Position numbers and translations under genes: made by a program. Below, in pieces: positions 1,778 to 41,094 of a stretch of 56,221 nt of DNA (its first letter is position 1; the number at the start of each line of letters is the position of its first letter). Source of the DNA: Bacteroidales bacterium (GTDB lineage Bacteria; Bacteroidota; Bacteroidia; Bacteroidales; UBA7960); NCBI GenBank assembly GCA_007125585.1, contig SLCY01000039.1, positions 1 through 56,221 of the forward strand, given 5' to 3'. A model generated the notes under the pieces. It saw only the letters and a list, made by a program, of their open reading frames with translations. It searched no databases and had not been told where the DNA came from.

Positions 1778-2215
1778 TTAGCGGGTCCACCGCATTTCAA
1801 GGTACTTGCTGGTAAAGCCAAGTTTTTCGTAGAGAAAACGGGCCGGGTTTTCCGGTTCCACATGCAGTTTAATATCTCCTTCTGCCTTGTCAAAGGTTTT
1901 GAGCATCAACTCCTTGCCCAGCCCTTTGCCACGATAGTCCTTGTCTACGGCAATGTAAACAAGGATGTTTTCCGGGATGTAACCTCCCATACCGGTTTTG
2001 TTGATGATTACCGCACCGGTTATCATGCCACCCTCTCTTGAGACCAGGATGAAGCCTCCAAACTTATCCTTGTCGTCAAGGGCGAAATTGATACATTTCA
2101 TGATGTACCGGTGCTCGTCGCCAAACTGATCCAGATGTTCATACAGGAAGTCGGCAATCTCCTTTTTTGTTTCTTCCGAAACCTTGTCAGCGGGAGTGAA
2201 AAATGTGTATTCCAT
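1778..2215 (-). CDS. GNAT family N-acetyltransferase
   Basis: A 145-residue protein with one GNAT domain. The acetyl-CoA-binding motif A is visible as DYRGKGLGKELMLKTFDKA (about residues 94-112), and the C-terminal strand-helix ends in LYEKLGFTSKYLEMRW. It should acetylate an amine using acetyl-CoA. Its start overlaps the symporter stop by one base (TAATG), so the two are translationally coupled. Placement between a Na+/solute symporter and an ornithine/alanine-racemase-like enzyme suggests the substrate is an amino acid or diamine, but this is inference. Confidence 0.85.
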   Translation of the reverse strand: MEYTFFTPADKVSEETKKEIADFLYEHLDQFGDEHRYIMKCINFALDDKDKFGGFILVSREGGMITGAVIINKTGMGGYIPENILVYIAVDKDYRGKGLGKELMLKTFDKAEGDIKLHVEPENPARFLYEKLGFTSKYLEMRWTR

Positions 2216-3657
2216 TACTTTTTGGTTTTGGTATTTTGTGTGAAGTTAATCAATGTAAATGATATAACTGCCAGTGTGATGCCAAAAATATTCGGGTCCA
2301 GCCCCAAAGGCAGTCCCCATTCGCCGATGATCAGGGTAATGGTTGTCCCGCCGCCCAGCAGCATCGCCCAGAAGGCGGCGACCGGATGGGCTTTTTTCAG
2401 AAATAGCGCACCGATCACCGGTATAAAAAGGCCGGATACCATGAAAGCATATGAGTGCAGCATCAGGTCGAGCACGCTGGGCATCACAGATGCCAGCAGC
2501 AGGGCCGTGGTCCCCAGTACCAGTGTGAGGGCCTGGGATACAAGCAGGAAGGACCTGCGGCTTTCGGGGACCTTAAACCACCTTGTCAGAATGTCGGTCA
2601 GGAAATTTCCGCTGGATGCCATCAGGCAGCTGTCTGCCGTTGACATGATGGCTGAGAAATAAGCAGCCATCATCAGACCCATCAACCCAACCGGCAACAC
2701 GGTACGCAGCAGCAAGGGCAGGCCTTGCTCCGAATCGATATCTGCAGCATCAGTAAATCCAAGATATTCAAACATCCCCTGCGCAATGGCTACCCTTGCA
2801 AAAAGGCCAAGCAACACCCCCATGAATGCCATCACAGGCCATTCAAACAACCCGGCGATGTACCATGCCTTTTGTGCCTGCTTTCTGTCGCGCGAGGCAT
2901 AGATCCGCTGATAAAGCGTCATCCCTACAAACCAGATGGGGATGATGGTGACCGCCCAGTTCAGTATTTGCTGCCAGCGGATGTTGGCCAGGCTGAAAAA
3001 TTCGGCGGGCAGCACTTCCCGGATGCTTTCCATGCCTCCCACACTGTAAAATGCGATGGGTATCCCAATGAAGACCAGTCCCGACATGAGGATGATCCAT
3101 TGAATGGTATCGGTATATATCACTGCTTTGATGCCCCCCATTGCGGTATAGACGATCACGATTGCACCCATGATGATCAGGGCCGTTTGCCTGTCAAGAA
3201 GCGGGGTAAAGGTTGCTTCGGCCAATATGGCTCCCGCCAGGATCTGTGAGCTGGTAAACCCCAGATAACCGATGGCGGATATGATGCCTGCAAGGAAAGC
3301 AACCCCCGGACTGTAAAAGCTGCCGAGAAACTGGGGGAAGGTGAAGAAGGTCTTTGTCTCTTCAAGCTTTTTCACCCTGGGAATCAATAAAACAGCACTC
3401 AGCCAGGCCCCGATCAGCCCGGTGAACAACATCCATGAGCCCGCAAGGCCCATCACAAAGCCAAGACCTCCCAGCCCGATGGAAAAACCGCCGCCGACAT
3501 CAGTGGCCACCACCGACAACCCAATGTGTATGCTGCCAATTTTTCGCCCCCCTACGTAAAAATCGTCAACCCCCCTGTTACGGATGAGAAAATAAATGCC
3601 GATACCGATCACCCCCATCATGTACAAGGTGAACACAAGGATGTCTAAAAAGTGCAT
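2215..3657 (-). CDS. Sodium:solute symporter (SSS family)
   Basis: A 480-residue polytopic membrane protein with about 13 hydrophobic segments. Sequence features are typical of the SSS/SLC5 family: an N-terminal segment followed by NRGVDDFYVGGRKIG, the GGGFSIGLGGLGF glycine-rich segment, and YTAMGGIKAVIYTDTIQ in the middle. It should couple Na+ entry to uptake of a small solute. Its place at the head of an operon with a GNAT and an ornithine/alanine-racemase-like enzyme hints at an amino acid, but SSS substrate cannot be told from sequence. The ATG at 3657 lies about 25 nt after a strong promoter (3686-3716). Confidence 0.9.
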   Translation of the reverse strand: MHFLDILVFTLYMMGVIGIGIYFLIRNRGVDDFYVGGRKIGSIHIGLSVVATDVGGGFSIGLGGLGFVMGLAGSWMLFTGLIGAWLSAVLLIPRVKKLEETKTFFTFPQFLGSFYSPGVAFLAGIISAIGYLGFTSSQILAGAILAEATFTPLLDRQTALIIMGAIVIVYTAMGGIKAVIYTDTIQWIILMSGLVFIGIPIAFYSVGGMESIREVLPAEFFSLANIRWQQILNWAVTIIPIWFVGMTLYQRIYASRDRKQAQKAWYIAGLFEWPVMAFMGVLLGLFARVAIAQGMFEYLGFTDAADIDSEQGLPLLLRTVLPVGLMGLMMAAYFSAIMSTADSCLMASSGNFLTDILTRWFKVPESRRSFLLVSQALTLVLGTTALLLASVMPSVLDLMLHSYAFMVSGLFIPVIGALFLKKAHPVAAFWAMLLGGGTTITLIIGEWGLPLGLDPNIFGITLAVISFTLINFTQNTKTKK

Positions 3658-3685
3658 TTGATTGTAACAATGGATTATTATGCGC

Positions 3686-3716
3686 CAAAGTTAGGGATTA
3701 TTTCGCCAAGAGCAAA
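3686..3716 (-). promoter_or_regulatory. Promoter of the symporter-GNAT-racemase operon
   Basis: On the minus strand TAACTTTG (3693-3686) is preceded by TTTG (3716-3713) with 19 nt between them, a complete Bacteroidota -33/-7 pair. It predicts a leader of about 25 nt before the symporter ATG. Confidence 0.8.
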
Positions 3717-3869
3717 ACTGGGGGTATAAAGCTTTGTTAGCAAGAGGATTATAGACACTTGAATCCGGAGAATTTTGTTTCTTTGCAAAACGATCGCTGG
3801 CTGCATGTTTATGGTTCGCCGGCAACACAAAATGCAAACCAACGCAGGAAATTAAAAATCCTTTCTCCA

Positions 3870-4814
3870 ATGTATCCCTGGGGCAACCGCCGCCGTTTTC
3901 ATTCATGGTCTGACGTGGTCCGCGAACGCTTTGGCACACGTTTGCAGAAGCTAACCATCAATGCCGGTTTCAGCTGTCCGAACCGTGATGGCACTGTCGC
4001 GACCGGAGGGTGCACCTTCTGTAATAATGAGGGCTTCAATCCATCGTATTGCGATCCGGAAAAACCCATTCATGAGCAGATAGATGAAGGCTTATCCTTT
4101 ATCAGGCAACGTTATCGAAGGGCTTCCCTTTTTGTGGCATACTTTCAGGCCTATTCAAACACCCATGCGCCCCTGCATGTTTTGAGACAGGTCTATGATG
4201 AAGCATTGCAACATCCGGCCATCTCCGGACTGGTCATTGGAACCCGCCCCGACTGCATAGACGCTGAAAAGCTTGACCATCTTGCCGGCCTTTCTCGAAA
4301 GGTTTTCATTAAAATAGAATATGGCCTGGAATCGTGCTACGATGACACCCTGATGCGAATCAACAGGGGCCATACCTTTAAAGACACACAGGAGGCGATA
4401 CGGTTAACTGCCGGATGCAACCTGTTGACGGGGGTACACATGATTTTCGGGTTGCCCGGCGAAAGCAGGGAACGGATGCTTGCCCAAACAGAGATGATCA
4501 ACGCCTTGCCCGTCAATACAATAAAATTCCATCAGCTGCAAATCGTAAAGGACACTGCCATGGCAGCTGCCTATTTAAAAGATCCGGGAAGTGTTCATCT
4601 TTTTGATCTGGATGAATACATCGACTTTGTGGTGGCCTTTGTGGAGCGTTTGCGGCCCGGCATTGCCATTGACCGTTTTTCAGGGGAGGTGCCACCAAGA
4701 CTTATTGTCGGAAACCGATGGGGGAACGTACGCTCTGATGGTGTGACCCGGATGATAGAGAAGCGGTTGGCTCAAAAAGGCACATTCCAGGGCAGGCTGT
4801 ATCCCCAAATTTAA
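3870..4814 (+). CDS. TIGR01212-type (YhcC-like) radical SAM protein
   Basis: A 314-residue radical SAM protein. The iron-sulfur cysteines lie in [16 protein letters not shown] (Cx11Cx2C), the expanded motif of the TIGR01212/YhcC family, which also shows the MIFGLPGE motif near residue 190. The reaction is not known for most members. An in-frame TTG at 3759 would add 37 residues, but ATG 3870 gives the conserved start ([16 protein letters not shown]) and the normal family length. It is followed after 41 nt by the AbgT transporter gene, possibly co-transcribed. Confidence 0.85.
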
Positions 4815-4855
4815 TTATTTTTGGCCTCATTTTAAGAATAAAATCCTGTTCGTCT

Positions 4856-6418
4856 ATGGAGAATGATAACCGCAACATGGTCTCCCGCATGCTTGGTGCC
4901 ATTGAGCGGGTGGGCAATAAATTGCCTCACCCCGCTACTTTGTTTGCCATCTTTGCTTTTGCCATCATCTTTTTGAGTGGCCTTGCTGCTTTGTTTAATG
5001 TGACGGCCATTCATCCTGGTACGGGTAAAGAGGTAACGGCATTCAATCTATTGAGCAGGGAGGGTTTGCACATGATCATGACCAATATGGTGGTGAACTT
5101 CACCTCTTTTGCCCCCCTGGGAACGGTTTTGGTCGCCCTGCTCGGTATTGGCGTGGCAGAAGCCAGCGGCCTGATGTCGACCGGCTTGCGTTTGCTGGTC
5201 ATCTCCGCACCAAAGAAGCTGCTGACCTTTGCCATTGTGTTCGCCGGCATCCTTTCGAATACAGCCAGCGAGGTGGGATATGTGGTGCTGGTGCCCTTGG
5301 GCGGAATGATCTTCCTGGCAGTAGGCCGTAACCCCATTGCCGGCATCGCTGCGGCTTTCGCCGGGGTGTCGGGCGGCTATTCAGCCAACCTCCTGCTCGG
5401 AACAATCGACCCCTTGCTTGCCGGCTTGTCGGAAGAAGCAGCCAGGATCATTGACCCCATCTACAACGTAAACCCTACGGCTAATTACTACTTCATGTTC
5501 GTGTCTACCTTCTTCATTGCCGTCATCGGCACATGGGTCACCGAAAAGGTGGTGGTTCCCCGCCTGGGAAAATACAAGGGAGACGCCCAACCGGAAGAGA
5601 TAAAGCAGCTTACAGACAATGAAAAGCGTGGCATACGCGCTACTTTCTGGGCACTGATAGGGATTGCATTGTTGTTGGTATGGAGCGCTGTGCCCATGGA
5701 AGGGGGGATATGGTCCTCGATACCGGGATCAGGCTTTATGCGTGATCCGGAGACAGGAGACCTGCTTCGTTCCCCCTTTATGAGCGGTATCGTAGCCATC
5801 ATATTCGTTGTTGCCGCCATATTGGGGATCGTATACGGCATCGCTGCCAAAACACTGAAGAGCAATTACGATGTGATCAATGGCATGGGCAAGTCTATGT
5901 CTACCCTTGGGACCTACATCGTACTGGTGTTTTTCGCTGCCCAGTTTGTGGCCTATTTTAACTGGACGAACCTCGGACTGATCTTTGCCATCCAGGGGGC
6001 AAATTTTATCGGGTCGCTTGGATTTGGACGCATCCCGCTGATGATAGCCCTTGTACTGGTGTCTGCCTTTATCAACCTTGTGGTGGGCAGTGCCAGCGCC
6101 AAATGGGCCATCATGGCACCCGTATTTATCCCCATGTTCATGTTGCTTGGCTATTCGCCCGAATTTACTCAACTGGCCTACCGCGTCGGGGACAGCGTCA
6201 CCAATGTGATCGCCCCCATGATGTCCTATTTTGCCATGATCGTTGCCTTTATGGAACGCTACGATAAAAAAGCCGGCATCGGGACCATCATTGCGACAAT
6301 GCTCCCCTATACGGTTGTTTTTCTGCTGGCCTGGTTGGTAATGCTCATCTTCTGGATACTGATGGGTCTACCAATTGGACCGGGCGCACCATTGTTTTAC
6401 GAGCTGCCCTTATCATAA
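4856..6418 (+). CDS. AbgT family transporter
   Basis: A 520-residue polytopic inner-membrane protein of the AbgT family. The N-terminus ([19 protein letters not shown]) and the late segment [20 protein letters not shown] are family signatures. Characterized members import p-aminobenzoyl-glutamate or export sulfonamides; the substrate here is unknown. No abgA or abgB hydrolase gene is nearby, so a link to folate salvage is not supported by context. A 180-bp gap separates it from the UspA gene. Confidence 0.9.
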
Positions 6419-36609: not shown

Positions 36610-38577
36610 TTATTTCCTTTTCTGTTGTGCAAATATTTCCAGTTGGATCCCTGCCCGGAAGTGCCTGAGGGGCATAGGCCGTCCGGCCATTGCCTCATAT
36701 GCCTCATTCCACAGGTTGTTGGCAGCGGCATACACCCTGAAGCTGTGTCCGGCAACATTGTACTGCCATTGCAGACCGATGTTCCCGGTATGATAAGGGT
36801 TGAGCCACTGGTTGTTATCACTGCTTGTATACCTCTTGCCCGTGTAGCTATGGTCAAAAATCAGGGTCAACCTCTCATGACGGATATACCAACTGTAGCC
36901 TGCCGTGTTTTTGGGCACGTAGATAAGTTGTTTGCCTGTTGAGGCATCATTGGGGCTTTTTGCGCGCATGTTTTCTGCCAGGGTAAGATCCCAGCGGGCA
37001 TTGATGCCGATCTGAATGGCACCTGCACTGGCTTTCACTGCGACCCTTGCTTCAAGTCCGTAGCTTCTCACCTCCATGACGTTCCTGGGCGACCAGTGCA
37101 TCATGCCTTCCAGGGGCAGCCAGATGATCCACTGCGATATGTTTCTGTGAAAACCGGTAATGGATGCTTTCTGGAGCCGGACGGGCGACCCGGGATCATT
37201 TGTATTGTCGGAGGATTGCCGGTGTTGTTCTGGGTTGTCGAAGGCAATGGTAAGGTCTCGACTCCAACCTTTTTCCGGTTCAAGATCGGGATTGCCGCCC
37301 GGCGTCCAGTACTTATCGTTGAGTGTTGGGACGCGGTAGTTTTTGCCGGTGTTAGCTTTGATAAACAGCATGGGCATTGCCTGGAAAGAAAGTCCGAATG
37401 CAGGGGCCAGGGGGGCTGCATGGCTGTCAACAAACTCTTGCCTGACGCTTGTAAGCAATTGCAAACGTCCCGGAACGGCTTTCCACTTCAGGGAGCCGAA
37501 AAGGGCAAGACTTTGCTGCTTTTGTTCGGTTTCCCTGTATTCATCGGCCCGGGCTTTGACCCGGCTGGTGTTGATCCCTCCATTGGCAAGCAGCGAAGGG
37601 TGGGGGCTGAACACCGCACCGGCTTCCTGAATGATGGTCTGAGAGCGGGAACGGCTCTCTCCGCTGAGGCTGTCAAAGTATAACAAGGTCTCGTCAAACA
37701 GTCCGCCGCGCCAGCTGATGACACTTTTGTCAAGCGTGGTCTGCCACTGTCCAGTAATACGGAAAGCTCCGTCTTCCTGGTATGCGCCTGCGGTGGATTG
37801 CATCAGGGGGGGAGGGATGTTGCGGTTTGTTTCCTGCCACCACCAGCGGATGTTTAGCCGGTGACGGTTGTGCATGCTGATATAGGTTTCATGCAGGAGT
37901 CCCCTCTGGTAGAGTGCGGCGTGTTCCTGTATTTGAACGGGATGGCCACTCATTGCGGTGTTCCTGTAACTGTAAAGGTTGTCGGAGGTCCGGTTAAAGA
38001 AACGCAACCTGGAGGAGACAGTTTCGCTACCCCATGCAAGCCGGAAGTGTTGTGCCATCTCTCCCACGTCGACAGCTGAAACACCTGCCAGGGCGCTCCA
38101 TCCCTGCTGCATGTCGCGGGTATTGTTTAAATGAATACTGCCTCCCATGTTACCGCTTCCCCACAGTGCGCTGCCACCTCCGTATTGTATGCCTGCTTCG
38201 TCGGCAAAAAAGACCGGGAACAATGCAAGGTCTGTCTGGCCATGCATATAATTTTGCAACGGAAAGCCATTCCAGATGAGGGATGTCTGCGCAGCCGACC
38301 CACCCCGCAGGGAGCTGGTAGACAGTATGCCGGGGCCATAGCGCTTGATGAACATGCCTGTATGGCTGGTCAGCAATTGATCAATGCCCCTGTCATATTG
38401 GTTATGAATGAACAGGTCATCGATCTGATGGAATGAATGCCCGGCAGAAAAAGCATTGTATCGCATGGCCCTTACCTCGGTTTCCCTGAGGGTGATAAGG
38501 GTGTCGGGCGGTTGATCCGTCGCGGCAGACAGCCCAAGGGGTAGCAGCGCGATTACGATTGATGTCCAGCGAAACAT
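36610..38577 (-). CDS. btuB: TonB-dependent corrinoid receptor
   Basis: A 655-residue outer-membrane receptor. It has a signal peptide (to about residue 18), a plug domain (about 30-150, with LRGGSAAQTSLIWNGFPLQN and GGSALWGSGNMGGSIHL) and a 22-stranded-barrel-like remainder. No carboxypeptidase-like N-terminal domain, as in SusC proteins, is present. Its length and position 150 nt behind a cobalamin riboswitch identify it as a B12/corrinoid importer. It is the first gene of the operon with btuG. Confidence 0.9.
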   Translation of the reverse strand: MFRWTSIVIALLPLGLSAATDQPPDTLITLRETEVRAMRYNAFSAGHSFHQIDDLFIHNQYDRGIDQLLTSHTGMFIKRYGPGILSTSSLRGGSAAQTSLIWNGFPLQNYMHGQTDLALFPVFFADEAGIQYGGGSALWGSGNMGGSIHLNNTRDMQQGWSALAGVSAVDVGEMAQHFRLAWGSETVSSRLRFFNRTSDNLYSYRNTAMSGHPVQIQEHAALYQRGLLHETYISMHNRHRLNIRWWWQETNRNIPPPLMQSTAGAYQEDGAFRITGQWQTTLDKSVISWRGGLFDETLLYFDSLSGESRSRSQTIIQEAGAVFSPHPSLLANGGINTSRVKARADEYRETEQKQQSLALFGSLKWKAVPGRLQLLTSVRQEFVDSHAAPLAPAFGLSFQAMPMLFIKANTGKNYRVPTLNDKYWTPGGNPDLEPEKGWSRDLTIAFDNPEQHRQSSDNTNDPGSPVRLQKASITGFHRNISQWIIWLPLEGMMHWSPRNVMEVRSYGLEARVAVKASAGAIQIGINARWDLTLAENMRAKSPNDASTGKQLIYVPKNTAGYSWYIRHERLTLIFDHSYTGKRYTSSDNNQWLNPYHTGNIGLQWQYNVAGHSFRVYAAANNLWNEAYEAMAGRPMPLRHFRAGIQLEIFAQQKRK

Positions 38578-38948: not shown

Positions 38949-40256
38949 TTATATTGTTGGGAAATACGCCGCGATGCCCATTCCCAGCAATTCTTTTACC
39001 GGACGGCAGTCTGCTTCATGGATATCCCCTTTGGTATTTTTTGCAACGGCACCACAACCCCCGCCGCAGACAAGCTGAAGGTTGCATTGCCTGCAGGCTT
39101 CTATGGAACGTACGTCGCGTCGCTGCCATGCGTGGACTTTTTCCATGTCGAGACGGATGTCGGGATGGAAGCGCCCCAGCTCTTCTCCGGGTTTGCCCAC
39201 GGTGGCTGTACAGCCGTAGATCACTCCCCTGTGATCAAAGGCCCATTCGCCTTTGCATGCAGGACACGCATCAAAAAGGGGAGGAGGCAGTGATCCGTTG
39301 TCTTTCAGAAACTGCGCCACGGTAAATGCGGGGCGATGAAAAGCAAGAATTTCCGGGTACTTATCAATGAGATGGAAGAGGTCCTTGTACAATGACAGAC
39401 GCGAGTACAGCTTGGCGTGTCCCGGGTGGCATTGATGCAGTTCATAATTTCTCCCCAGCTGAGTTTTAAACAAGGGGGACTCCGTCCATCCTTTATCAAT
39501 GGCATAGCGGGCCAGATCAGGGAGGTTGTTGATGTTCTCCCTGTCGACCACCATCCGGAGGTTCACCTGCAACCCCTGTTCGAGACAGTTGCCGATGGCT
39601 GATACAATGCGGTGAAACGTTGCTTTCCCGCCTTTGAGGGGTCTACGGCGGTTATGTGTCTCTTCGGTCCCGTCGAGTGTGATCTGTATCTCACGGATGC
39701 TAACATCAGAGAACAAGTCCAGGTATTCGTCAAGGTGATACCCGTTGGTGACCACGGCCAGGTCGAGGCGGTGGTCGACACAGCGATTCAGGAAGCAGGC
39801 CATCGTTTCCCTGTATTCTTTTCCCGGCAGCAGTGGCTCGCCACCAAAGAGGGTAACATATTTGGACCGGTGCCCCATATGTTGCTGCAGGTAGGCAAAA
39901 AAAGCGTCGATCACCTGTTTGGAGAGCTTCTCCGGGGCAGAAAGGTATTGGGCCTGGTAACAGTAGTCGCATTCGAAGTTGCAAAGGTAGGTGGGTGCGA
40001 AAAACAGCTGCAATTCCTCCCGGCTGCGTTGTTCCAGAAAGTCGATATAAGCCATCTGGTAACGTTGCTGTTCCTCTTCCGGATCAGCGATATAGCCTTT
40101 GACGATGAAATCCTCCGGGGGTGACGCTCCCGGATGCTTCAGCATGTTTACCTCTTGCCGGGTCAGCAGATCGGCATGGCCGGACAAGCTGTTTACGACA
40201 ATGAACTTGTCGCTGCCACTGACCTCTGAAAGGATATTGTACGGAGAAGGACGCAT
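38949..40256 (-). CDS. Radical SAM/SPASM peptide-maturase-like protein
   Basis: A 435-residue radical SAM enzyme with Cx3Cx2C cysteines at 92, 96 and 99 (LCNFECDYCYQ), the GGEPLL motif near 137, and a C-terminal SPASM domain (about 330-435) with CPACKGE, CRQCNLQLVCGGGC and a final Cys. SPASM proteins bind extra Fe-S clusters and most modify peptides. The N-terminal ~80 residues may bind a leader. The gene starts 12 nt after a 35-codon ORF encoding a Cys-containing peptide, which is its likely substrate. The modification made is not known. No transporter or protease gene is near. Confidence 0.88.
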   Translation of the reverse strand: MRPSPYNILSEVSGSDKFIVVNSLSGHADLLTRQEVNMLKHPGASPPEDFIVKGYIADPEEEQQRYQMAYIDFLEQRSREELQLFFAPTYLCNFECDYCYQAQYLSAPEKLSKQVIDAFFAYLQQHMGHRSKYVTLFGGEPLLPGKEYRETMACFLNRCVDHRLDLAVVTNGYHLDEYLDLFSDVSIREIQITLDGTEETHNRRRPLKGGKATFHRIVSAIGNCLEQGLQVNLRMVVDRENINNLPDLARYAIDKGWTESPLFKTQLGRNYELHQCHPGHAKLYSRLSLYKDLFHLIDKYPEILAFHRPAFTVAQFLKDNGSLPPPLFDACPACKGEWAFDHRGVIYGCTATVGKPGEELGRFHPDIRLDMEKVHAWQRRDVRSIEACRQCNLQLVCGGGCGAVAKNTKGDIHEADCRPVKELLGMGIAAYFPTI

Positions 40257-40268
40257 GGCTTCAACATG

Positions 40269-40376
40269 TTAGTCATGACACCCCGCCTGTGCAACGGATG
40301 TCTTGGCACAACACTGGGCTTGCTTCACCCTGGTCTGCTTTTCCTGCTTTTTCTCTTTTTTAATGAGGCTTTTCAT
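40269..40376 (-). CDS. Putative RiPP precursor peptide, 35 aa
   Basis: A short ORF (ATG 40376, TAA 40269) of 35 residues. The first ~19 are strongly basic and charged (MKSLIKKEKKQEKQTRVK), like a leader; the rest is small-residue rich with three cysteines (QAQCCAKTSVAQAGCHD, Cys22, 23 and 33), like a core. It sits between a methyltransferase gene (88 nt upstream) and a radical SAM/SPASM gene (12 nt downstream) on the same strand, which is the usual RiPP arrangement. No Shine-Dalgarno site, as expected in the phylum. The reading is from codons and context only; I recognise no named family. Confidence 0.65.
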   Translation of the reverse strand: MKSLIKKEKKQEKQTRVKQAQCCAKTSVAQAGCHD

Positions 40377-40388
40377 AATGAATGTTTG

Positions 40389-40423
40389 ATATCTCTGAAA
40401 TGTCTTATATCTCTGAAATGTCT
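40389..40423. repeat. Two 17-bp direct repeats before the peptide ORF
   Basis: ATATCTCTGAAATGTCT occurs at 40389-40405 and again at 40407-40423, an 18-bp period, just upstream of the peptide start. On the minus strand the units lie in frame with the ORF (would read K/Q-TFQRY), but no start codon precedes them after an in-frame TGA, so they are probably untranslated. Confidence 0.85.
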
Positions 40424-40464
40424 GTGATGTTTGACAGGCGGAATGTTGTATTCACATTGTCACA

Positions 40465-41094
40465 TTATTTCTGTCCTTTGACGGTGAAACTGGCCACGGT
40501 GACCCGTCCTTTCTCGTATGGTTCTGATTCTTCCAGTATTTCGATGTTGCGCAGGCCGGCACTGGTGATGTTTTGCAAGTATTTTTCTCTGGTGACGGCG
40601 CCAGCCCAGCATTTGGCGACCATTGCAGGGTCTTTCCGGTATTTTTCAGGCACTGGCACTGTCGCATAAATGTCACTGACCACGAATCGCCCCCCTTTTT
40701 TGAGCATCCTGGCAATCTCTTTCCAAACCCTGTCCTGGCTGAGAGAATGGTTGATGGCACAATTGGAGATGATCACATCGGCAGCATTGTCATCCAGCCT
40801 GATCTTTTCCAGCTGACATTTTATAAAATCAATGTTTTGAATTCCTGTTTTTTCAGCTTGTTGCCGGGCTGTTTCCATCATCCCGTCAGATATGTCAACC
40901 CCATATGCATATCCGCCATCTCCTGCCAGCAGCGCCATGCGTAAAACATCGTGGCCTTTACCGCATCCGAGGTCCACGCATGTATCACCCGGCTTAATTT
41001 CTGCAAATGAGAATGCTCCGCCACATGACAAACAGCATGTTTGCTGCGACAATCCGTCGTATCTCCTGGCAATGCTGTCAGCGTACAGGTCCAT
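40465..41094 (-). CDS. Class I SAM-dependent methyltransferase
   Basis: A 209-residue methyltransferase with SAM motif VDLGCGKGHDVLRMA (about residues 40-54), acidic motif GVDISDGMM and motif IV DVIISNCAINH. The N-terminus has an unusual CCLSCGG cluster (Cys20, 21 and 24). The core resembles UbiE/ArsM-type enzymes, but the C-terminal cysteines of arsenite methyltransferases are not evident. It leads a three-gene unit with the peptide and radical SAM genes, so peptide or cofactor methylation is possible; arsenic or quinone methylation is an alternative. Confidence 0.82.
   Translation of the reverse strand: MDLYADSIARRYDGLSQQTCCLSCGGAFSFAEIKPGDTCVDLGCGKGHDVLRMALLAGDGGYAYGVDISDGMMETARQQAEKTGIQNIDFIKCQLEKIRLDDNAADVIISNCAINHSLSQDRVWKEIARMLKKGGRFVVSDIYATVPVPEKYRKDPAMVAKCWAGAVTREKYLQNITSAGLRNIEILEESEPYEKGRVTVASFTVKGQK

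Follow-up and report, generated by a model that had tools for sequence, protein, structure and literature searches.

A short peptide gene between two enzyme genes

The stretch of DNA analysed here (56,221 nt; contig SLCY01000039.1 of the Bacteroidales assembly GCA_007125585.1; in the following referred to as the window) carries three adjacent genes on its minus strand, which are read in the order methyltransferase, 35-codon peptide and radical S-adenosylmethionine (SAM)/SPASM enzyme and are separated by gaps of 88 nt and 12 nt, respectively (Table 1). A preliminary description, made from the sequence alone, had placed these genes, their strand and the gaps correctly, had pointed to the basic N-terminal half of the peptide and to its cysteines Cys22, Cys23 and Cys33, all of which we find as described, and had read the arrangement as that of a precursor with its modifying enzymes. 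We find that the 35-codon open reading frame (ORF) is a real gene and that the unit, which occurs in many anaerobic bacteria, probably represents a new SPASM-associated family of ribosomally synthesized and post-translationally modified peptides (RiPPs) with an unusual set of partners.

Relatives were taken from two samples. In an order-level sample of 295 genomes, an orthologue of the radical SAM enzyme (E ≤1e-40) is present in 33; 32 of these loci, i.e. the window and 31 larger stretches, were read at the DNA level, and the 33rd genome (G263) holds a fragment at a contig edge, its enzyme gene piece beginning 14 bases from the contig end and its upstream region being absent from the contig. 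From a named genome collection we used the best 80 of 403 stretches encoding a relative of the enzyme (by record title 60 Bacteroidota, 6 Ignavibacteria, 6 Spirochaetes, 1 Marinimicrobium, 1 deltaproteobacterium and 6 unassigned). Since nearly all of the named records are metagenome bins, the phylum labels of single loci (e.g. L140, the deltaproteobacterial one) may be wrong; also, the two sets overlap in several genomes and their counts are not additive. In a phylum-level sample the enzyme was detected at 1e-80 in 6 of 395 genomes, the window's own genome among them.

A small ORF of the same family (31–38 aa) lies in all 32 intact order-level loci when the DNA around the radical SAM gene is read, and was seen in 29 of 30 in a first pass confined to ≤600 nt upstream. 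In the named collection it is found in 78 of the 80 loci, or 78 of the 79 that have upstream sequence; the exceptions are L123, the stretch of which begins at the radical SAM gene, and L136. A peptide profile (33 positions), built from the 32 order-level loci, gave 33 matches with E <1e-11 and two weak ones (0.001 and 0.006) in the 295 genomes, with one match per genome in all 35 genomes matched. All but one of the strong matches (32 of 33) fall in genomes with the radical SAM enzyme; the remaining one is in genome G037. The corresponding two-by-two table (32, 1, 1, 261) yields a Fisher p of ~1.5e-40, a figure that ignores relatedness, relies on a profile from the same loci and is a description, not a clean test. 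The gene order methyltransferase, peptide, radical SAM enzyme is kept in all 70 named loci with an upstream methyltransferase (for L097 and L107 the radical SAM gene was placed by its match in the search for relatives, not by an open ORF). Three loci (L050, L084 and L114) show one or more extra ORFs between the peptide and the radical SAM genes, i.e. their adjacency is not absolute.

Invariant over the 32 peptides are M1, A20, C22, C23, A24, K25, G32, C33, H34 and D35; L4, K7, Q21 and S27 are nearly so. The last 16 residues before the stop codon (AQCCAKxSxxxxGCHD) are nearly fixed across Bacteroidota, Ignavibacteria, Spirochaetes, Marinimicrobia and Deltaproteobacteria, as assigned by record title: among 79 sequences, the changes at the fixed core places amount to one Q to L, one final D to N (L102) and a replacement of S27 by T or A in five, S27 being kept in the other 74. 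As the search pattern behind the 79 sequences demands CC, A, K, G, C and H and excludes internal stops, the invariance at these residues is partly by construction; the profile search demands no exact residues. In the near clade (n = 11), the ratio of nonsynonymous to synonymous differences (pN/pS) is 0.10 for the core, 0.25 for the leader and 0.53 for the middle, with pN of 0.08, 0.22 and 0.41 (equal-length pairs only), reflecting purifying selection that is strongest in the core, weaker in the leader and weakest in the middle; over 79 sequences the core value is 0.19. At silent sites, the differences have reached saturation (pS ~0.84 in core and leader).

A chance ORF is ruled out by the occurrence in 32/32 order-level and 78/79 named loci, by the profile matches and by pN/pS. 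Loci lacking any small ORF, or a small ORF without conservation, had been named in the preliminary description as what would speak against a precursor; the same counts and the core pN/pS point the other way, and the precursor arrangement is supported. With a conserved start, a free middle and an end fixed up to the stop codon, the peptide has, judged from the alignments, the form of a RiPP precursor; as expected of a RiPP with a radical SAM/SPASM maturase, the short gene adjoins that of the maturase, and both the start of the leader and the core are conserved. In a search of the 32 sequences, the peptide was not named by any NCBIfam model; one sequence matched a bacteriocin-immunity model (E 0.046), taken as chance. 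Upstream of the peptide gene, within the 88-nt gap, a 16-nt stretch (gacatttcagagatat) was noticed by eye, occurring twice, 2 nt apart (40389-40422, minus strand).

Table 1. Features of the window and the orphan peptide gene of genome G037
Feature	Coordinates	Strand	Remarks
Methyltransferase ORF	41094-40465	minus	209 aa; cassette-type, ArsM-paralogous SAM methyltransferase
Precursor-type peptide ORF	40376-40269	minus	35 codons (MKSLIKKEKKQEKQTRVKQAQCCAKTSVAQAGCHD); leader MKSLIKK..., core AQCCAKTSVAQAGCHD up to stop codon
Radical SAM/SPASM peptide maturase ORF	40256-38949	minus	435 aa; Pfam PF04055
Cobalamin riboswitch RF00174	38909-38713	minus	112 bits; downstream of the cassette, ahead of the TonB-type receptor gene
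TonB-type receptor gene	36610-38577	minus	B12 receptor family likeness, 60.4 vs cut-off 599.7
Orphan peptide gene, G037	G037:C3:120298-120393	minus	in stretch L160 (G037:C3:112000-128000)

The radical SAM/SPASM enzyme and the methyltransferase

The radical SAM enzyme of the window contains, next to its Pfam radical SAM domain, the motif C92xxxC96xxC99 and seven SPASM cysteines (C331, C349, C388, C391, C397, C401 and C417). This seven-cysteine pattern (CX9-15GX4C, CX2CX5CX3C, C) is found in all 107 rows of two partly overlapping sets, and CX3CX2C in 104 of them within the scanned stretch; the misses (L110, L130 and L048) are N-terminally extended ORFs, and for L048 and L130 the motif is visible in the alignments. 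An AlphaFold2 (AF2) model of the window enzyme, with a mean predicted local distance difference test score (pLDDT) of 92.9, starts with three strands followed by helices (beta3-alpha3), a topology resembling that of a RiPP recognition element (RRE), and structure alignments of the whole model take in this part (5wgg from residue 4, 8vpo from residue 1). The Pfam scan of the enzyme gave no PqqD match. Going by the model, the N terminus may bind the leader of the peptide.

The best solved structure for the enzyme is 5wgg, by sequence (75 bits), by Foldseek (E 2.6e-18) and by VIA (Z 27.1, root mean square deviation 3.9, 394 residues aligned, model residues 4-435), followed by anaerobic sulfatase maturase, ChlB and SuiB; we take 5wgg and 5why to be CteB. 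The cassette resembles CteB/CteA, the SCIFF ranthipeptide system, in that a SPASM maturase with an N-terminal RRE-like region is preceded by a short, cysteine-bearing precursor just upstream. It differs from it in its score against the SCIFF maturase model TIGR03974 (78.3 vs a cut-off of 425), in a precursor with three cysteines instead of six, and in the addition of an ArsM-type methyltransferase and, in most relatives, of a thioredoxin-thioredoxin reductase fusion (Trx-TrxR). No NCBIfam cut-off is reached by the window enzyme. The models of CefB (NF038107), TIGR04463 and the ranthipeptide maturase PapB (NF047865) match all 32 members, as do Clo7bot and DynA, but the window enzyme stays far below their cut-offs (142.6/600 for CefB, the best score, 128.6/525 for TIGR04463 and 109.6/340 for PapB). 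A quick tree of 76 enzyme rows groups by phylum (7 label changes vs a shuffled mean of 11.8) and settles neither descent nor transfer. Plasmid-borne copies were considered as well; the five records show 25–29% identity and were taken as other families.

For the methyltransferase, the best relatives in NCBIfam, among PDB sequences and among PDB folds are arsenite methyltransferases. In the alignment, its residues C24, C112 and C162 correspond to C72, C174 and C224, the arsenic ligands of a solved arsenic methyltransferase (with PDB entries for the C72A and C224A mutants), and all 50 rows have cysteine at the three positions. Against NF008823 (ArsM) the window protein scores 182.9 bits, below the cut-off of 263. 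The CCLSCGG cluster, which the preliminary description had regarded as unusual for the fold, is real and conserved in the family; however, it is not an oddity of the locus, as it is inherited from the ArsM family, to which the enzyme is akin, and its last cysteine aligns with Cys72 of the solved enzyme. Many relatives end in a short cysteine-rich tail (e.g. CSCC), which is missing from the window and its genus mates and partly tracks the Trx-TrxR gene.

A methyltransferase profile finds matches in 98 of the 295 order-level genomes at E 1e-30, and these fall into two separate score groups. The high group (309–395 bits) comprises 32 genomes, each with its match on the contig of the cassette, and the next match scores 190 bits; part of this gap is built in, because the peptide and methyltransferase profiles came from the same 32 loci. 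The low group (≤190 bits; mostly frames of ~265–290 residues, range 197–410) was taken as probable ordinary ArsM. One of its members, G262:C86:19985-20581, lies away from the cassette and is, with 214 residues (153 bits), similar in length to the cassette enzyme. A second ArsM-like gene of the low group is present in 18 of 33 cassette genomes and in 66 of 262 others (Fisher p 0.0009), and 15 of these 18 copies lie within ~2 kb of Acr3; the cassette enzyme is therefore a separate paralogue, and the idea that it is the usual arsenic gene of the cell is weakened. Acr3 itself exceeds its cut-off in 26 of 33 cassette genomes and in 119 of 262 others (p 0.0003), whereas a control, the heavy-metal RND pump, gives 23 of 33 (judged from best E) and 158 of 262 (p 0.35). 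As these tests ignore relatedness and habitat, the associations lend weak support to a metalloid role.

Neighbouring genes

A Trx-TrxR gene is present in 27 of the 32 order-level loci and follows the cassette in 54 of the 73 named loci with long enough downstream sequence. Within the order-level set, the loci without it are the window, its two genus mates, L045 and L054; within the named set, they are the window's close relatives together with L101, L132 and L140. Read from the first 60 residues, the thioredoxin motif was CPPC in 42 cases and CAPC in 6; in another 6 it was not found. Other genes recurring in the 32 order-level loci (stretches of 4.7–20 kb) encode a separate thioredoxin (18), DUF6132 (13), DUF302 (10), a Crp-type regulator (8) and DUF1847 (7).

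We also counted close neighbours, i.e. families on the same strand and within 2.5 kb in at least 6 of 76 named loci, excluding the cassette and the reductase. Ten families were obtained: thioredoxin, DUF1847, DUF6132, DUF6452, DUF6048, DUF456, a family without Pfam match, a TonB-type receptor, an aminotransferase and a PspC-like gene. Seven of them were treated by Pfam, the last three being read from sequence, position and likeness to genes of the window. None of the ten looks like an exporter or protease (76 named loci; rarer neighbours are mostly unannotated). Of the 76 stretches, 8 contain an ABC ATPase family, which lies ≤2.5 kb from the cassette only in L140.

Upstream of the cassette in nine loci (L093, L096, L099, L100, L104, L108, L111, L116 and L131; several titled Prolixibacteraceae) phage-tail-like genes are found on the opposite strand, with a Pvc16_N domain and, in most, a tail sheath family; they constitute a contractile-injection-type cluster. 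A tail tube family occurs in five of the 76 loci. In the window, a PspC-domain gene lies upstream of the cassette, and the cobalamin riboswitch and TonB-type receptor gene on its other side (Table 1) are probably a B12-uptake unit with no relation to it.

Possible product and role of the cassette

The reading that we favour, though with little better than even confidence, is that the cassette makes a conserved intracellular thiol or redox peptide of cofactor type and not a diversifying antibiotic. The radical SAM/SPASM enzyme would bind the leader (MKSLIKK...) with its RRE-like N-terminal domain and modify the C-terminal core AQCCAKxSxxxxGCHD. Judging by the fold and the nearest relatives, the change would most likely join a cysteine sulfur to a carbon of a nearby residue, giving a thioether of the CteB/ranthipeptide type. 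The conserved Ser27 lies at +4 from Cys23 and +5 from Cys22, and such spacings between cysteine and acceptor occur in known ranthipeptides. The ArsM paralogue might act next, its target being either the peptide or a ligand (soft metal or metalloid) bound to the remaining thiols. Outside the window's clade, Trx-TrxR may in most relatives keep the thiols reduced at the cost of NADPH; in the window's clade the general thioredoxin system would have to do so. That the cell makes the molecule for itself is suggested by the core that is fixed across phyla, the single copy, the lack of a regular export gene and the paired reductase in most relatives, and the early guess of an intracellular, cofactor-like peptide with a redox or metal-binding role agrees with these features. 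What the sequences show directly is the gene unit, its conservation, its domains and the joint occurrence of its genes; leader binding, the thioether chemistry, the methyl target and the redox role are inferred.

Several observations weigh against this reading. Genome G037 (99% complete) has a canonical peptide gene and no radical SAM orthologue (best match 41.9 bits); it is also without a cassette-type methyltransferase, its sole ArsM-like match (173 bits) being on another contig. Conversely, L136 (5264-8671) keeps the radical SAM enzyme and Trx-TrxR, and neither peptide nor methyltransferase was found in its stretch; it is the only peptide-less case among the 79 testable named loci. In 5 of the 75 named loci that allow a decision (L088, L101, L135, L136 and L140), no methyltransferase was seen upstream; the contig sets a limit in L135, and in L101 a BLAST-labelled methyltransferase lies farther downstream. 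At L140, the only locus with a deltaproteobacterial title, genes for an FtsX/MacB-type ABC permease and of the ABC-ATPase family (1875-5111) lie directly upstream of the peptide gene, a unit that would suit an exported product at this locus. For the window itself the redox link is indirect, because its clade is without the Trx-TrxR gene. Finally, since the maturase passes no family cut-off, the case for a thioether draws on fold and nearest relatives, and the products of similarly folded SPASM enzymes also include C-C links, epimers and formylglycine. The genes around the G037 peptide are, as we take them from their sequences, an unrelated methyltransferase, a Fur-like regulator, a peroxiredoxin and Hdr/TusA-like genes. 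A link to sulfur trafficking through the latter was tried and dropped: of 12 neighbour queries against the other loci, only the unrelated methyltransferase matched (23 loci).

The main rival is a module for metalloid handling, in which the methyltransferase would methylate arsenite (or Sb, Se or Te), the three-cysteine peptide would serve in place of glutathione as a thiol carrier presenting the metalloid, and Trx-TrxR would reset the enzyme. We consider this unlikely, though several findings speak for it: the fold of the methyltransferase and its three arsenic-ligand cysteines, kept in every row, are those of ArsM (4fsd, 4kw7), and Acr3 as well as a second ArsM-like gene are commoner in cassette genomes, with no clear excess of the RND control. 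However, these associations are subject to the limits given above, and the cassette enzyme differs from ArsM by its small size, its score and its tie to the peptide, being a paralogue apart from the copies that mostly adjoin Acr3. Also, ars genes were not seen as recurring neighbours of the cassette, with one weak ArsC-family match in L118, and the need for a SPASM enzyme would be left unexplained.

The remaining explanations are much less probable. Sactipeptide and ranthipeptide clusters usually show a small cationic precursor beside a SPASM maturase, and this layout, together with the ABC unit of L140, could speak for a secreted antimicrobial or signalling RiPP; we regard this as very improbable, as the commonest close neighbours include neither exporter nor protease, and as the core, unlike that of diversifying bacteriocins, hardly varies across phyla. 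Scarcely better are the prospects of an unmodified small thiol or metal-binding protein, with the radical SAM enzyme acting on another target. The peptide of G037 would fit, and its three Cys, His, Asp and Lys could coordinate metal without modification; on the other hand, peptide and enzyme occur together in 32 of the 34 genomes having either (strong peptide matches only), and the enzyme has an RRE-like N terminus and a full SPASM domain. The preliminary description had also pointed, in passing, to selenobiotic (sbt) loci, which share the general layout and are defined by a selenocysteine (in-frame TGA) in the target peptide. It had itself stated correctly that the window peptide has no in-frame TGA (as the final stop, TGA is used in 17 of 79 peptide genes), and no selenobiotic model is among the NCBIfam matches listed for the enzyme (25 of 81); this relation finds no support here and its probability is negligible. 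A paper search for the term returned nothing.

Going beyond the favoured intracellular peptide, the cassette might make a new peptide-derived redox cofactor of anaerobes, i.e. a crosslinked, possibly methylated CCAKxSxxxxGCHD fragment. Such a fragment would carry electrons or bind a soft metal or metalloid, and its recycling would fall to a dedicated Trx-TrxR driven by NADPH. This is a speculative proposal, which we consider rather unlikely as it stands; if true, its rank would be comparable to that of mycofactocin. In mycofactocin and PQQ, a SPASM enzyme builds a cofactor from a conserved stretch of a short peptide, the core of which hardly changes across taxa. The core residues of the cassette are different ones, and neither further cofactor-building genes nor a client dehydrogenase were recognised at it.

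Full-text paper searches, which leave subscription literature largely outside their scope, returned no description of the cassette; nor is it described in passages of the ranthipeptide paper PMC10352776, and radical SAM atlases such as those cited there could include the cluster without a name.

Many SPASM-matured peptides are variable antibiotics or orphans. Here, the 16-residue core is nearly fixed over several phyla and goes together with an ArsM paralogue of its own and, in most relatives, with Trx-TrxR. This suggests a housekeeping molecule, and the locus is therefore a small, concrete target in the search for a new cofactor derived from a peptide, or for a new metalloid ligand. Some members of the ArsM family have apparently been recruited to a peptide system, which is a warning against calling every ArsM-like gene an arsenic gene.

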